Positions 31,319 through 38,617 of a DNA stretch of 40,578 nucleotides are shown one piece after another. Each line of letters starts with the position of its first letter. Positions within the stretch are counted from its first letter, which is position 1. The stretch is from Minisyncoccota bacterium (GTDB lineage Bacteria > Patescibacteriota > Minisyncoccia > JAHIHE01 > JAGLIN01). Made by a program: the position numbers and the translations under genes. The stretch lies in NCBI GenBank assembly GCA_028690055.1, contig JAQVBZ010000017.1:1-40578 (forward strand), written 5' to 3'. The notes under the pieces were generated by a model. That model made no database searches. It was given only the letters and a program-made list of their open reading frames with translations, and was not told the DNA's origin.

Positions 31319-32167
31319 ATGAAAATATTGATTCTGGGAGCCAAAGGTATGCTCGGCCATGAACTTGCAAAAGTTTTTTCCGATAAGGATAAATACGAAG
31401 TTACTCTTTGGGACCGTGAAGAATTGGATATTACGGATCAAGAGGCAGTGGATGCCAAGGTTAAGGAACTTCACCCCGAAGTCATCATAAATGCCGCCGC
31501 CTATACCGCAATCGATAAGGCGGAGAGCGAGACGGATTTGGTGTACAAGATAAACGCCTATGCGGTAGGCTATTTGGCTAATTTGGCCAAGGATATCGGG
31601 GCGCTACTTATCCATTTCAGTACGGACTACGTTTTTGACGGCGAAAATAATATGGGATACAAAGAAGACTATCCGGTCAAGAATCCCGCAACCGTGTATG
31701 GCAAATCCAAAAAATTGGCGGAAAAGATGATTGAAGATATCAACCCTCGACATTTCCTCATCAGAACCCAGTGGCTATTCGGGATATCTGGCAAGAATTT
31801 TATTGAGACTATGCTCCGAATCGCGGACGAGGGGAAAGACTTGAAAGTTGTGAATGATCAGTTCGGAAGTCCGACATATGCCAAAGATTTGGCCGAGAGG
31901 GTGCGTGAAATGATTGAAGAGAACCGCGAATCTGGAATCTATCACATAACCAACTCTGATACTTGCAATTGGTACGATTTCGCGCAGAAGATATTTGAGC
32001 TTTCGGATATTCATCCATCCTTGAAACCCGTGACATCGGAAGAATTCGCAGCTCCTGCCAAACGCCCTACCTATTCGATGCTCATCAACACCAAACTCCC
32101 TCCACTTCGCTCTTGGCAGGACGCACTGCAGGCATATCTGATTGAGACCGGAAGGATTAAGGAGTAA
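31319..32167 (+). CDS. rfbD: dTDP-4-dehydrorhamnose reductase
   Basis: MKILILGAKGMLGHELAK, NAAAYTAIDKAES, STDYVFDG, YGKSKKLAEK. Confidence 0.9.
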   Translation: MKILILGAKGMLGHELAKVFSDKDKYEVTLWDREELDITDQEAVDAKVKELHPEVIINAAAYTAIDKAESETDLVYKINAYAVGYLANLAKDIGALLIHFSTDYVFDGENNMGYKEDYPVKNPATVYGKSKKLAEKMIEDINPRHFLIRTQWLFGISGKNFIETMLRIADEGKDLKVVNDQFGSPTYAKDLAERVREMIEENRESGIYHITNSDTCNWYDFAQKIFELSDIHPSLKPVTSEEFAAPAKRPTYSMLINTKLPPLRSWQDALQAYLIETGRIKE

Positions 32168-32215: not shown

Positions 32216-32306
32216 TGTTCTCTCATAATAATATTCTGTGGATAACTTCTACTTTTCCGGATGACAGTTTACTTTTTATGGCTTAAAATGGTCATTTAAA
32301 AAACTG

Positions 32307-32334
32307 TTGACATATTTTTTTTTATTGCTATACT
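32307..32334 (+). promoter_or_regulatory. Strong sigma70-type promoter
   Basis: TTGACA-16 nt-TATACT. Confidence 0.7.
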
Positions 32335-32346
32335 GTCCTTACCTTA

Positions 32347-32451
32347 ATGAGAAATATGGAAAACTTTAAATTACAATCTAGCGTTTCTGAAACAAGCCGA
32401 ACCTTCGGTATGTTTAAGGTTGTAATTATTAGCCTACTAACAGTCGGGTAG
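32347..32451 (+). CDS. Candidate leader peptide A: MRNMENFKLQSSVSETSRTFGMFKVVIISLLTVG*
   Basis: Starts just after the promoter; stop codon sits at the base of the following hairpin; related to leader B. Confidence 0.4.
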   Translation: MRNMENFKLQSSVSETSRTFGMFKVVIISLLTVG

Positions 32452-32519
32452 CTTTCTTTTGGATTATAAACGTACGGATTAAATCCGAAAGAAAGCCACT
32501 TAATCAAAGTGGGTTTTTT
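32451..32519 (+). promoter_or_regulatory. Attenuator-like hairpin pair: 15-bp stem then terminator
   Basis: GCTTTCTTTTGGATT/AATCCGAAAGAAAGC; CCACTT-aatca-AAGTGG-gTTTTTT. Confidence 0.6.
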
Positions 32520-32665
32520 ATTTATTCTAAATTTGCTTTTTGTCCCTGCTTCAGCTCCGTGTCTTTTTTGGAGAGTCGTATCTGGGATAAAAAACAAAAA
32601 CGATTTACAAAAATTAACAAATTAGGGGGAGTGAAAAATTTTAGGACTGCTTAAAAGGAGCAAAA

Positions 32666-32887
32666 GTGAAATATAAGCTATTAGCCGCGGGCAAACATCC
32701 TGCGACAGATCCGGATTCTTACGAGGAATCCTTAGGGACGAATCAGAGAGAAGACACAATCTTCTCGACTGCCAAGCCTGGCTTATATCCGCTCCAATCC
32801 GATAGGCAACGTGATTACAAATCAAATCCATACGTTGCCTCCCAATCCCTGCTTTGCAAAAGATTATATTTTGTAGGCAGAGATTAG
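32666..32887 (+). CDS. Small hypothetical ORF (73 aa, GTG start); could instead be part of a structured RNA
   Basis: SD aaaaggagc upstream; but several perfect hairpins inside (e.g. AGGCAACGT/ACGTTGCCT). Confidence 0.35.
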   Translation: MKYKLLAAGKHPATDPDSYEESLGTNQREDTIFSTAKPGLYPLQSDRQRDYKSNPYVASQSLLCKRLYFVGRD

Positions 32888-32929
32888 TCTTTCAATCAAA
32901 AACGATTGGAAGATTAAAGAGGTAAAAAG
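32849..32929 (+). promoter_or_regulatory. Duplicated two-hairpin 5' leader, copy 1
   Basis: CTGCTTTGCAAAA..TTTTGTAGGCAG and TCTTTCAATC..GATTGGAAGA then SD. Confidence 0.55.
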
Positions 32930-33061
32930 ATGAGAATAAAAATGAAACCGAGAATAGAAAAAACAAAGCGGCAAATATTTGCTGAGGAAGTAGGGGAAAC
33001 TATTTGGAATTTCTTTAGATTTAGATATGTATATTTTCTAGTCTGCGGCTATTTTCCATAA
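32930..33061 (+). CDS. Small ORF, 43 aa: MRIKMKPRIEKTKRQIFAEEVGETIWNFFRFRYVYFLVCGYFP
   Basis: SD aaagagg directly upstream; follows leader copy 1. Confidence 0.45.
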   Translation: MRIKMKPRIEKTKRQIFAEEVGETIWNFFRFRYVYFLVCGYFP

Positions 33062-33159
33062 ATACTTCCCCCACTCTATTTATTTCGTTTTTGATTCTAT
33101 AATTCTAAAAGTGTATTTCTTCTTAAAATATATTTTTACGATATCGTTAAAAATGATTC

Positions 33160-33249
33160 CTGCCTTGCAAAAAATTTTATTTTGTAGGTAGAAATTAATC
33201 TTTTATTTAAAAAAAACAATTAAAAGATTGATATTGGGAGGAGAAAAAG
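33160..33249 (+). promoter_or_regulatory. Duplicated two-hairpin 5' leader, copy 2
   Basis: CTGCCTTGCAAAA..TTTTGTAGGTAG and AATCTTTTA..TAAAAGATT then SD gggaggag. Confidence 0.55.
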
Positions 33250-33522
33250 ATGGGAAAAAGACAAGCGGAAGTAAAAGTCATAGAAATAAATATAAATCCA
33301 CGGAGTGAAGATGTCATTCCGGTGTTAAAGGAAATCAGGCAGAATATTGAAGGAATAAAGGGAACTGTGAAAGTCTTGTATAGTTTTAAAAAGGGAAGAC
33401 TTTTCTTTACCGTTCCTTTCGAAATGTATGATTTGGCCTTGAAATTACTTCAAGAAAAAATACCAGGAGTAGAAATTTCAAAGTCAAATAGGGAGAGAGA
33501 TGCGATTTGCTCTCTCTCCTGA
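33250..33522 (+). CDS. Small hypothetical protein (90 aa)
   Basis: Strong SD, well-formed amphipathic sequence MGKRQAEVKVIEININPRSEDVIPVLKEIRQNIEGIKGTVKVLYSF... Confidence 0.65.
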   Translation: MGKRQAEVKVIEININPRSEDVIPVLKEIRQNIEGIKGTVKVLYSFKKGRLFFTVPFEMYDLALKLLQEKIPGVEISKSNRERDAICSLS

Positions 33523-33657
33523 CTAAATTTTTTATTTTGAGCTTTTATTTTGTGGGGTAGATTTTACCCTACAGAATAAAGTCTCAAAAAAACTAAAACA
33601 TAATTTGAGGCTGAAAATAAAAAGAATGGAGATAATAGATCTAGGAGGAAGGTAAAC

Positions 33658-33792
33658 ATGGTATCGGTTAACGGTAATGATTATCAAACAAAGAAAATTC
33701 CGCCAGAGGTGGAAGTGTTAAGAGATGAAGGTGTCTTGTCTTTGTCTGACCCTTCTTTGCCGAAGAATGAAACATTAGATTCTTACGAGTGA
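33658..33792 (+). CDS. Small ORF, 44 aa: MVSVNGNDYQTKKIPPEVEVLRDEGVLSLSDPSLPKNETLDSYE
   Basis: SD ctaggagg upstream; preceded by a long hairpin 33540-33586. Confidence 0.45.
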   Translation: MVSVNGNDYQTKKIPPEVEVLRDEGVLSLSDPSLPKNETLDSYE

Positions 33793-33847
33793 CTGGGAAA
33801 ATAACAAAACTCAGTTCTCTCTTTTTCAAACCAAAATCATTTCATAT

Positions 33848-33916
33848 ATGTCTACGCAATCGCAAGTCATTATTAGCATTATTATTGTAGTCGGGATTTG
33901 GCCCGGTGGGTTTTGA
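33848..33916 (+). CDS. Candidate leader peptide B: MSTQSQVIISIIIVVGIWPGGF*
   Basis: Overlaps the 5' strand of the attenuator stem; shares VIIS...VG with leader A. Confidence 0.4.
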   Translation: MSTQSQVIISIIIVVGIWPGGF

Positions 33917-33969
33917 TGCCTACAAAACTTACTAGGTTAAATCCCGACTTATCAAAGTTGGGATTTTTT
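33890..33969 (+). promoter_or_regulatory. Attenuator: mutually exclusive antiterminator and terminator stems
   Basis: GTCGGGATTT (33890-33899) pairs AAATCCCGAC (33939-33948), which alternatively pairs GTTGGGATTTTTT (33957-33969). Confidence 0.65.
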
Positions 33970-34005
33970 AATAAAAACAAAAATAAAAATTAAAGGTGAC
34001 GGATA

Positions 34006-34200
34006 ATGGTTATGGTTGAAGTTACACAAGAAGATGTAGTTCGTATAAAGGATGCATTCGCAGAGAATAATCTTAACGATAAGGCGATATTCCTTCAGAC
34101 TGTAGGACAAATACAGTTTTTGTCTGTTTGCAAGCTGATGTCTAGTAAGGAAAAAAGACTGGCCGAGGGAATAGTCAGAAATGTAGTTTTTGGAATATAA
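34006..34200 (+). CDS. Small hypothetical protein (64 aa) downstream of the attenuator
   Basis: SD aaaggtg; MVMVEVTQEDVVRIKDAFAENNLNDKAIFLQTVGQIQFLSVCKLMSSKEKRLAEGIVRNVVFGI. Confidence 0.6.
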   Translation: MVMVEVTQEDVVRIKDAFAENNLNDKAIFLQTVGQIQFLSVCKLMSSKEKRLAEGIVRNVVFGI

Positions 34201-34218
34201 AATTAATAAAACGTTGCT

Positions 34219-34246
34219 CAAGTCTAAAATGACTTGGGTTTTTATT
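34219..34246 (+). terminator. Terminator after the small-ORF array
   Basis: CAAGTC-taaaat-GACTTG-ggtttttatttt. Confidence 0.75.
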
Positions 34247-34297
34247 TTACGCTCTGGAGGACAGATGATATAATAAAAGTGTAAATTAAAGAAATAT

Positions 34298-34906
34298 ATG
34301 GGCGAAATTTTCAAAGAATCTAAGAGCTATCTCAGTCACATCCAAATATATATTTGGATTTCGTTGGCCATTTTTTTGCTTTCTGCCGTTGCCGGCTTTT
34401 ATGCTTCTCAATACTATCCGCAAGAAATACAGTCATATCTGGACGAGGCGGAAATTTTTTTCTCGTCGATGCAATCCCCCACTCTTTGGGGAACCTTTTT
34501 GATGATTTTGCAAAACAATGTGGAGGCGATGCTACTTATAGTCTTTCTAGGGGTATTCGTTGGATTTTTTTCTTTTGCTTTTCTTATCGCCAATGGTTTT
34601 ATCGTAGGTGTTTTTGCCCATCTGTTTTATATGCAGAATATGCTGTTACTTTTTTTCGTGGGTATTTTTCCCCATGGTATCGTTGAAATTCCTTGCATGC
34701 TCTTTTCTGCGGCAATAGGTTTCCGAATCGGAAAAACAGTGATCGATAAGATTTTTTATAAAAAGACAAGTCTGACGGCAGAATTGTCAGAGGGAATTAA
34801 ATTCGCTGTTACTATAATTGTTCCTGCATTGGTCTTGGCGGCGCTCATCGAAACATATATAACACCTCTTTTTATCGCTCTGGTCCAAACTGGCCCGGAG
34901 GTTTAA
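34298..34906 (+). CDS. Stage II sporulation protein M (SpoIIM)-like membrane protein
   Basis: ILQNNVEAMLLIVFLGVFVGFFSFAFLIANGFIVGVFA ... FPHGIVEIPCMLFSAAIGFRIG. Confidence 0.85.
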   Translation: MGEIFKESKSYLSHIQIYIWISLAIFLLSAVAGFYASQYYPQEIQSYLDEAEIFFSSMQSPTLWGTFLMILQNNVEAMLLIVFLGVFVGFFSFAFLIANGFIVGVFAHLFYMQNMLLLFFVGIFPHGIVEIPCMLFSAAIGFRIGKTVIDKIFYKKTSLTAELSEGIKFAVTIIVPALVLAALIETYITPLFIALVQTGPEV

Positions 34907-35834: not shown

Positions 35835-38300
35835 TTATCTAGCAGTCTCTATAGAATCGAATACCGTTTCATTAACAACTGCGATGTCTTCCCATTTGAG
35901 TCCGGCAGCTTGGAATGCTTCCGCGGTAGGAATCCATGTTTTTCGACCATTCTTTATTTTGTAAACTTTATAGTCATCTACCTTTTGGACAAGTGTTACA
36001 TCTTCAACTGTTCTTAAAAATGAATCTTTTTTCTTGAGAGATGTAGCTGGAGAAGCGGCAGGATTGGATGCGGCTATAGGAGTAGCAGTAAGACTGGAAG
36101 AAAGTGTAGGGTAAGTAGACGTGGCTGTATCAGCGTCTTTCGTACATGTTGTTGTAGCAAGGGCGGTGGCTGTTACACATGATGATAGGCATTCGCTTGC
36201 AGTCGGGCAAGAGGTGCTGGTAGTTGCCGCATCGCAACATTTACTTACTGTGTCGCAAGCATTTGAACAGTCTATAGCTTGCATACATGCGGTCAAACAA
36301 TCTGAAAAGCCTGTGGTCGTAGGGGTAGATGCAGCCGTGGTGGTTGTATCAGCCGAGGTTTTTCCAGCGAGATAATCTGCCCAGGCTTGTGCCATTGAAG
36401 CAGCTGTGGTGGCAGCAGGAACGGTCGCCGTTCCTGTAGTTCCTGTTCCGGTGGTTGTTCCTGTGGTCCCTGTGTTGTTTGCATTGACTTGTGCAAGGTA
36501 GGTTTCCCAAGCCTTTGCCAATTCTGCAACGGAGTTGCTGGCAGCAGCAGCCTTGATCTGTGAAGCTGTGTCAGTGGCAGTCGTATCAGAACTAGTGGCA
36601 GCAGCGGTATTACATCTTGTCATATAATTCTGAAAATCCTCAGACCACTGGTCGTCAGTAGTATATTCGTCATATCCATAATCTTCAAGGAAGTCTTCAT
36701 AAAGCTTCTCTGCCTCGTCTTGTGTAGACGAATTTACAGCTTCGTCGTAGTTAGCCAAATATTTATCCCAAGCTTCATCTAACGTAGATGCGGAATAGGT
36801 TTCGGTTTCACCGTTATTATTCACGAAAATATATGCATATTCGTAACTATCGGAGTTATTTGAAGAAATGTTTGAAGAATCATTTTGGTAATCACTTAAA
36901 AATGATTCTGCAAGATTCTCCCAATCCATATCTGAGAGTGAAGACATATCCCCTGCTTGTGAAGGTATGAATTGTTGCCAGTCCATGTTCATATTTTCAA
37001 GGAATTTATCTATTTGATTTTCGAATTCGCTTGATATGGAACTACTGTTGTCGTCGGTAAAATTTTGCCAAAGATTTTCAAGCTCTTTATTTGAGGTAGA
37101 CGATTCAGTATTACTGCTATTGACACTCGTAAGTTTACTTATGTACCCATCTAAAGCTTCCTGTAGATTTCCATCAATAAGCGCTTGTATCTCGTCAATG
37201 TTTATAAGACTCTGTCCGTTCGAGCTATTTGAGCTATCCAATGACATCAAACTCTGTTGATTGGTAATGAGCAATTTTTTTCCGTTTTCGGTAATGCAGA
37301 AGAGATTGCCATCTTCGTCTGCGACGATGGTAGCTTCTTCATAAGTATCTTGTACATTATCGTTGGTGTCTTCGACTTCTCCCCAATCATAACCGCCCTC
37401 CGCAAAGGCGTCCGGGTTTGGAATCCAGAAGGCTTGGCTTCCGATAATTTCATAAACCTTATCTAATTGGTCTTTGATAAGTCTTATTTGATCTTGAATG
37501 CTTGTGAGAGTCTCTGCGTCTATTTCTTGTATGTTATCCCAATTATAGCCTTCGCTTGTAAATTCCTCCGCTGTTTCGATCCATTCTTTTTCGCCACCCT
37601 CAATGACGTAAACTTTTTCGTCATCCGGGAGTTTGATAAGAGTGCCGTCTGGAAGGTTAGAAGCGGTTGGGGCGGAATAATTAGCTTCCAAGTTATCGAG
37701 GTAAGTACTCAGATAATTTTGAAGGCTTTGTTCATCAGTAATGTCGGCATTGCTGAAGTTCAAATTCTTGAGATAGCTGGCAAGATATGTACTCAACTGC
37801 TCGTCGGTCAAGTTTGAGAAATCTTCGCCTGTTTCCAGCGCTGCAAAATTGTAGTTTGCAACATCAAAACTCGTAGCATATCCATCGATGTAAGCATTGA
37901 TGTCAGCGGTGGTGAGATTTGTATCGATTGTTGAGGTCGTAGTAGTGGTGGTTGCCCCCTCGGCTAAGCAGGCTCCTTCACTACATCCAAATTCACAATC
38001 ATAATATGAGGCATACCAAGAATCGTTCTTGCAGGTGTACTCTAAGAGCTTGCCGTTATCAACACATTTGTCGTAAGACCTAAAAATCCCGACGCGGTTT
38101 GCATCATGGACTGATCCCCTTGCAAAAAGATTCGAACCATCATCGGAATCGGTACAAGCGATACCAGTATTGGTTGTGGTGCTTTCCGCAGTGCGCGCGG
38201 AAGTTGCTGTCAGATCCTCGTTTCCTTGTTTGGCCATCGTTACTCCGTAGCCGGCAAGAAACATCGATATGACTGCAACAAAAAGTAATTTTTTGTTCAT
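35835..38300 (-). CDS. Large secreted low-complexity (Ser/Thr/Asn/Asp) protein with repeated Trp-containing modules and Cys-rich segment
   Basis: Signal peptide MNKKLLFVAVISMFLAGYGVTMA; repeats AxAWxxYLA and VYxIxxGxKxWIxTAExFxxxGYxW; start set to 38300. Confidence 0.75.
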   Translation of the reverse strand: MNKKLLFVAVISMFLAGYGVTMAKQGNEDLTATSARTAESTTTNTGIACTDSDDGSNLFARGSVHDANRVGIFRSYDKCVDNGKLLEYTCKNDSWYASYYDCEFGCSEGACLAEGATTTTTTSTIDTNLTTADINAYIDGYATSFDVANYNFAALETGEDFSNLTDEQLSTYLASYLKNLNFSNADITDEQSLQNYLSTYLDNLEANYSAPTASNLPDGTLIKLPDDEKVYVIEGGEKEWIETAEEFTSEGYNWDNIQEIDAETLTSIQDQIRLIKDQLDKVYEIIGSQAFWIPNPDAFAEGGYDWGEVEDTNDNVQDTYEEATIVADEDGNLFCITENGKKLLITNQQSLMSLDSSNSSNGQSLINIDEIQALIDGNLQEALDGYISKLTSVNSSNTESSTSNKELENLWQNFTDDNSSSISSEFENQIDKFLENMNMDWQQFIPSQAGDMSSLSDMDWENLAESFLSDYQNDSSNISSNNSDSYEYAYIFVNNNGETETYSASTLDEAWDKYLANYDEAVNSSTQDEAEKLYEDFLEDYGYDEYTTDDQWSEDFQNYMTRCNTAAATSSDTTATDTASQIKAAAASNSVAELAKAWETYLAQVNANNTGTTGTTTGTGTTGTATVPAATTAASMAQAWADYLAGKTSADTTTTAASTPTTTGFSDCLTACMQAIDCSNACDTVSKCCDAATTSTSCPTASECLSSCVTATALATTTCTKDADTATSTYPTLSSSLTATPIAASNPAASPATSLKKKDSFLRTVEDVTLVQKVDDYKVYKIKNGRKTWIPTAEAFQAAGLKWEDIAVVNETVFDSIETAR

Positions 38301-38617
38301 TTTTGTTTTTAGTTTTCTTAAATAAAAGAGCAAATGTATTTTGTCTCGTGCTACATAGGCGTAAAACTTAGATTGATAAATACAAAGAGCAATTTTTCTC
38401 ACCTTCTGTGGTACTCTGATCGTTTAAAAGCGGGCAGAAATAAAAACACCCTTTAATTCGCCCGGTTTTCTTCATCTGTTATTACCATTATAGTCTAAAA
38501 AACGGCTTTTGTCAACGCGATGATTTTAGAGAATTCTCTGTAATATATATTGCTATTATTGGCTTGATATAGGTAAATAATGAGGTTAGAATGTCTCTTC
38601 GGCGCAGTTATGAATCA

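Follow-up and report, generated by a model that had tools for sequence, protein, structure and literature searches.

A putative, clade-specific array of small-protein genes under two candidate branched-chain amino acid attenuators in Patescibacteria

Attenuation of the trp type is based on competing structures, namely a hairpin of the leader ORF, an antiterminator and a terminator. Among the systems closest to the one presented here, the ilv-leu operon of Staphylococcus aureus has a Leu-rich attenuator (PMC5794164), ilvBNC of Corynebacterium glutamicum has a three-hairpin attenuator (PMC11857589), and the mgtCBR operon of Salmonella carries tandem attenuators (PMC3641672). A literature search of incomplete coverage found no relevant paper on leader-peptide attenuation in Patescibacteria or Parcubacteria. 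These reduced bacteria are presumed to depend on other cells for amino acids, and little has been described of how they sense starvation and respond to it.

We analysed a window, that is the whole stretch of 40,578 nucleotides, from the assembly of a Minisyncoccota bacterium (G000; 1.46 Mb in 54 contigs). Between rmlD (31319-32167) and the gene of a SpoIIM-family membrane protein (34298-34906), the region 32307-34239 is very probably a single small-protein operon under two ribosome-mediated transcription attenuators, AttA and AttB. Judging from sequence comparison, the operon appears to be a clade-specific small-protein array attenuated by branched-chain amino acids (BCAA), the kind of attenuator itself being already known. 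This agrees in part with the first-pass annotation, which had proposed a regulated small-protein system with attenuated peptides: a structured leader stands before most of the ORFs, and synteny between the neighbours is conserved.

The transcription unit and its two switches

The strong promoter reported earlier, TTGACA-16-TATACT, is present on the plus strand at 32307-32334; it is sigma-70-like, has 11 of 12 matches, and is the top-scoring site of its kind in the stretch. Transcription from it would be expected to begin about 15 nt ahead of the leader ATG. The operon is closed by an intrinsic terminator on the plus strand at 34216-34239 (folding z -5.0), after which the SpoIIM gene has a promoter-like site of its own (34246-34274). 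The hairpins and T-run terminators already remarked on were confirmed as well, since five terminator-like sites were counted against 1.2 +/- 1.1 in shuffles; the relevant ones, all on the plus strand, are the ends of AttA and AttB and the site at 34216-34239. Folding z-scores, computed against dinucleotide shuffles, were -5.1 for AttA and -5.8 for AttB. Six places fold far more strongly than shuffles, while the coding stretches tested are ordinary (0.05, -1.1 and 0.02 in and around the 43-, 90- and 64-aa ORFs). At Rfam gathering thresholds only RNase P and four tRNAs were found in the window, and a T-box riboswitch was rejected because nothing in it matched the Rfam T-box model. Farther along, an 855-aa GTG ORF on the minus strand (35835-38402) has only sub-threshold Pfam matches.

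The AttA leader ORF (32356-32451, plus strand) encodes 31 aa, MENFKLQSSVSETSRTFGMFKVVIISLLTVG, and ends VVIISLLTVG before the stop. An alternative start at 32347 would give the 34 aa counted previously, and 32356 was set by homology; of the 18 genomes of the order, 16 have homologous leaders. Within the ORF lies the plus-strand hairpin P0 (ATTACAATC/GGTTGTAAT, 32370-32426) with an inner hairpin (CCGA/TCGG, 32397-32408), and both show compensatory changes. The AttA switch as a whole spans 32431-32519 and comprises, on the plus strand, segment 0 (AGCCTACT, 32431-32438, with Leu CUA codons), the antiterminator arms (32448-32465 and 32482-32499) and a terminator with T6 (32491-32519). AttB is internal to the operon, between payload genes. 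Its leader, the sixth ORF (33848-33916, plus strand), encodes the 22 aa MSTQSQVIISIIIVVGIWPGGF, reads VIISIIIVVGIWPGGF and contains VIISIIIVVG, thus spelling Ile-Ile-Ser-Ile-Ile-Ile-Val-Val. The AttB switch (33889-33968, plus strand) has antiterminator arms at 33889-33915 and 33923-33949 and an alternative terminator at 33939-33966 with a T run at its end. In both switches the leader ORF ends in what is also the 5' arm of a long antiterminator hairpin, whose 3' arm is shared with the T-run terminator.

In 17 AttA sequences the four helices (31 pairs) are 95% paired and 10 pairs have changed on both sides; none of 500 shuffles paired equally well, and slid-partner controls were 32-50% paired. 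The pairs of the AttA terminator itself are few, and most of their variation is one-sided. The helix of segment 0 with the terminator arm shows only one-sided variation in this set of 17 sequences; in the more distant copies of G015 and G016:C20 both of its sides have changed, CCTGCT going with AGCAGG (by eye). The 26 pairs of AttB are 94% paired, six of them with double changes.

The leader tails are also unusual in composition: 7 of 10 residues in one and 8 of 10 in the other are I, L or V, against 23.8% in the genes of the window. Such a tail occurs in only three of the 367 short ATG ORFs of the window, two of which are the AttA and AttB leaders, and a scan of the 40.6 kb on both strands for an ILV leader plus terminator returned these two loci only. 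CTA makes up 5.9% of Leu codons. Both elements have, upstream of the genes, a short ORF whose codons include a regulatory run, and alternative antiterminator and intrinsic terminator structures with compensatory changes.

Whether ribosome position decides the fold was evaluated by folding each attenuator, in an equilibrium model, with the front edge of the ribosome moved codon by codon. For AttA of the window the predicted terminator arm is free to 0.44-0.47 only with the A-site in the V-I-I-S-L block, as compared with 0.02 without a ribosome and 0.17 at the stop codon; in this model antiterminator and terminator exclude each other only in part, and the arm is never more than half free. The freeing block consists of the codons around and before CTA CTA, and most relatives show the same freeing window in silico, with varying height; in G006 the AttA leader is displaced and stops prematurely. 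In the leuA-like AttA copy of G010 the corresponding block is Ser/Leu. We infer that AttA may sense Val/Ile, Leu or a mixture of them. For AttB of the window the predicted terminator arm is free to 0.8-0.9 as long as the A-site has not reached the second Ile run, and is bound from there on (about 0 free). The copies of G005, G006, G007 and G011 switch similarly in silico, and in G003 only about half of the arm is free before the switch. In G001 and G002 the terminator fold is preferred at nearly every ribosome position, so the equilibrium model fails to explain them. AttB is lost or damaged in G012 and G013, where it looks decayed. A repeat interrupts AttB in G013 (L045, about 1310-1410, minus-strand orientation), the AttB payload is missing there, and the same repeat is also found upstream of AttA.

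From these data it is possible to propose a mechanism. RNA polymerase would initiate at the promoter and a ribosome would start the AttA leader peptide. With plentiful charged Val/Ile tRNA (and probably Leu tRNA, CUA being a rare codon) the ribosome would reach the stop codon and sequester the antiterminator's 5' arm, so that the terminator at 32491-32519 would form. A ribosome stalled in the GUA-AUU-AUU-AGC-CUA block would instead cover segment 0 and leave the antiterminator arm free, so that the terminator arm would stay open and transcription would run into the array. With no ribosome on the leader, segment 0 itself would pair with the terminator arm. AttB, as a second attenuator inside the operon, would then decide whether the last gene, of 64 aa, is made. 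Sequence comparison shows the leaders and the alternative structures, and also that these are conserved and, in relatives, stand in front of leuA; from this a response to BCAA starvation may be inferred.

A different kind of switch was also considered, in which the leaders stall the ribosome by their nascent-chain sequence, as for ABC-F resistance genes. A single distant AttA-like element, G016:C20 (L109, 698-2709), with the CCTGCT/AGCAGG pairing, does lie upstream of a gene for a ribosomal-protection-like ABC-F ATPase. However, it is the RNA that is conserved and not the residues of the leaders: pairs of leaders with 85-91% nucleotide identity have a dN/dS of about 1 or more, suggesting that the constraint is on the RNA rather than on the amino acids. 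Moreover, the conserved feature is the presence of I/V/L codons at the switching position, and leaders before leuA-type genes are Leu-rich. An antibiotic- or stalling-peptide switch is consequently highly improbable, and attenuation by supply of BCAA remains the preferred reading.

Payload genes and hairpins of the array

Seven ORFs of the sizes listed in the first-pass annotation are all present, but they do not form one class. Those of 34 and 22 aa are the attenuator leaders, which the annotation had recognised neither as such nor by the amino acids they encode, and the 73-aa GTG ORF (32666-32887, plus strand), which has no homolog, is probably not a real gene, because its 3' end overlaps the conserved E hairpin 1, which in G005 lies outside any such ORF. 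The other four, all on the plus strand, are retained as putative payload genes: 43 aa (32930-33061; SD GAGGT; no clear homolog), 90 aa (33250-33522; SD AGGAG), 44 aa (33658-33792; SD AGGAGG) and, under AttB, 64 aa (34006-34200; SD AGGTGA). In line with the remark that no family was recognised, nothing exceeded the cut-off when the small ORFs were compared with Pfam, NCBIfam, PHROGs and PADLOC. The 90- and 64-aa proteins had no credible homolog in the 383 other genomes of the class. Since the payload ORFs of the window are without homologs, their putative translation rests on SD sites and position. The toxin-like peptide module put forward at first found no support, as no known toxin or antitoxin family was matched in the libraries searched.

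A ferredoxin-like beta-alpha-beta-beta-alpha-beta fold is predicted for the 90-aa protein from its single sequence (pLDDT 72). The best PDB fold matches of this model are designed ferredoxin folds and the amino-acid-binding regulatory domains of aspartokinases, at E of about 0.001-0.015 and 10-24% identity. None of them is a specific relative, and they are suggestive of a common fold and no more. A beta-alpha-beta-beta-alpha fold shared by all payloads was rejected, the 64-aa protein being predicted as all-helical, with four helices (pLDDT 81).

Long hairpins precede the 43-, 90- and 44-aa ORFs. E hairpin 1 (CTGCTTTGCAAAA..TTTTGTAGGCAG) and a second hairpin (32846-32918, plus strand, z -5.5) lie upstream of the SD site of the 43-aa ORF, in a region about 90% identical in G005. 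E hairpin 2, again with a second hairpin (33157-33232, plus strand, z -3.8), lies upstream of the 90-aa ORF and is a repeat (D1) with 83% identity to E1. Hairpin E proper occupies 32846-32884 and 33157-33195. A 24-bp hairpin (33535-33589, plus strand, z -7.2) stands upstream of the 44-aa ORF, and G005 has a similar outer stem, TTTTGAG/CTCAAAA. These hairpins would probably act in mRNA processing, stability or translation, and the payloads would be starvation-induced proteins.

A model of the E hairpin, R3, matched the window at 32843-32890 and 33154-33201, and at the level of E = 0.05 these two copies of the array are the only ones in the genome. Up to that value all matches fall within AttA arrays or immediately downstream of an AttA, although R3 was built from array sequences, which favours arrays. 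Matches outside the training set were G016:C68, G003:C43:15857 and G010:C106:9400. As R3 keeps only 6 pairs because loop lengths differ, matches were judged by position together with E-value, and opposite-strand matches of R1-R3 were rejected as palindrome echoes. Because the E hairpins repeat and the payloads vary, an integron-like cassette array was considered; in the alignment of the E hairpins no attC core GTTRRRY/RYYYAAC was seen by eye, and the hairpins precede the ORFs.

The first-pass annotation had left room for one or more large structured RNAs. None of a known kind was matched in the array at Rfam gathering thresholds. RNA as the product is kept as an alternative, in which AttA would start a structured non-coding RNA, released by starvation and acting in trans, the tiny ORFs being mostly incidental. 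In favour of it, payload ORFs are replaced over time within a conserved RNA frame of AttA, E hairpins and AttB, and a block common to G001, G002, G009, G010 and G011 is conserved as hairpin-bearing DNA, so that even antisense ORFs look conserved; such antisense ORFs were rejected as an effect of conserved DNA. In G016:C68 (L107, minus strand, 4507 to about 4070), some 250 nt of hairpins with a terminator-like end come after AttA and an E hairpin, and no ORF there has an SD site; this may be an RNA-only member. On the other hand, AttB stands directly before a protein gene in most genomes, the payload ORFs of the window have good SD sites, and several payload ORFs of relatives are clearly coding, the better-conserved pairs having a dN/dS of 0.2-0.5, from which at least some payloads are real proteins. 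We therefore consider an RNA product unlikely and continue with the small-protein operon. The dN/dS check that had been suggested thus gave values expected of proteins for these payload pairs and not for the leaders.

Distribution among relatives and possible role

Those relatives with the element that bear a name are MAGs of Patescibacteria, assigned to Parcubacteria, Paceibacterota or Moraniibacteriota. The AttA covariance model found 16 of the 18 genomes of the order, the same 16 among the 384 of the class, and none of the 366 class genomes outside the order; AttB occurs in 10 of the 18. In a DNA search of 54 genomes, G005 had the same blocks in the same order, and AttB was found in G011 and G003. 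With SpoIIM as anchor, and counting the family genomes in which the contig extends over the upstream region, most have AttA, then tiny ORFs, then AttB and a single ORF of 62-96 aa before SpoIIM. The conservation that had been asked for in relatives therefore holds for hairpins and leaders and not for the payload ORFs of the window. Payload families of relatives measure 72-73 aa (G003/G010), 80-96 aa (G002/G007/G011) and about 25 aa (G006/G012/G013). By eye, tRNA-like sequences were noticed just after or within AttA arrays (L042 of G011, L105 of G009, L039 of G010), in G009 and G011 directly behind AttA.

Some attenuators precede biosynthetic genes. The gene after AttB is leuA in G003, and in G005 leuA lies behind a third, AttA-type attenuator with a Leu-rich leader; both exceed the cut-off of the NCBIfam 2-isopropylmalate synthase model, and putative control of BCAA biosynthetic genes, as in leu/ilv operons, is thus found in these relatives. 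The leuA of G005 (L014, G005:C11, 1873-3414, minus strand) has one in-frame TGA after codon 147, for which a nonsense mutation, an assembly error or recoding are candidate causes. A divergent leuA-like gene follows a Leu-rich AttA in G010. In three genomes an AttA copy is followed by a small ORF and, farther downstream, by prephenate dehydratase in G001, by an aroD/aroE/aroK-like fusion in G004 and by an M20 peptidase in G008; for these distant genes the position is downstream of AttA and control is putative.

The genome of the window has neither a leuA-type gene (PF00682) nor ilvC (PF01450), and thus lacks what attenuators of this type normally serve. PF00682 genes were found in 4 of 29 genomes and PF01450 in one of the 18 of the order, which implies that nearly all these bacteria cannot run the standard Ile/Val pathway. 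One could then suppose that the locus is the decaying relic of an attenuated leucine-biosynthesis operon after loss of leuA, its ORFs being noise. The leuA genes behind attenuators in G003 and G005, the damage to AttA or AttB in G006, G012 and G013, and the orphan payload ORFs of the window would all fit this idea. Yet compensatory changes, which make pure decay unlikely, maintain the structures throughout the family; all 14 family genomes retain AttA, although most have no leuA; and payload genes of relatives are under purifying selection. A relic is thus very unlikely, and we conclude that the region is not in decay.

Because members of the order keep the switches, with compensatory changes, despite the near-general absence of the pathway genes, the switches must serve something else, most likely the expression of small proteins when BCAA run short. 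A wider proposal, which we put forward tentatively and as possible rather than probable, is that order-wide BCAA-starvation switches induce fast-evolving orphan microproteins (or a structured RNA), with a clade-specific hairpin as their mark, in bacteria presumed to be host-dependent. If true, such bacteria would have a starvation-response regulon of orphan microproteins. The switches would also offer a readout of one nutrient signal in uncultured organisms, since terminated and read-through transcripts are countable in existing metatranscriptomes, and they single out small ORFs absent from the family libraries searched.

Comparison with known attenuators

The systems of S. aureus ilv-leu and C. 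glutamicum ilvBNC share with the present one a short BCAA-rich leader peptide and an antiterminator/terminator choice set by the ribosome, and some relatives here also have leuA downstream. The differences are that the genes putatively controlled in the window are small orphan ORFs and that its genome has neither leuA nor ilvC, that sequence and structure are specific to one order of Patescibacteria, and that AttA adds segment 0, predicted to pair with the terminator arm in the absence of a ribosome. To our knowledge there is no sequence relation between mgtCBR and AttA or AttB. Like mgtCBR, the array would have two leader ORFs with separate attenuators on one transcript, and controlled genes that are not biosynthetic for the sensed amino acid; unlike it, payload genes separate the two attenuators and both appear to sense BCAA. 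With trp-type attenuation the locus shares the hairpin inside the leader ORF and the competing antiterminator and terminator, while it differs in its regulatory codons, which are those of Ile, Val and Leu, and in AttB, most copies of which are predicted to read through without translation.
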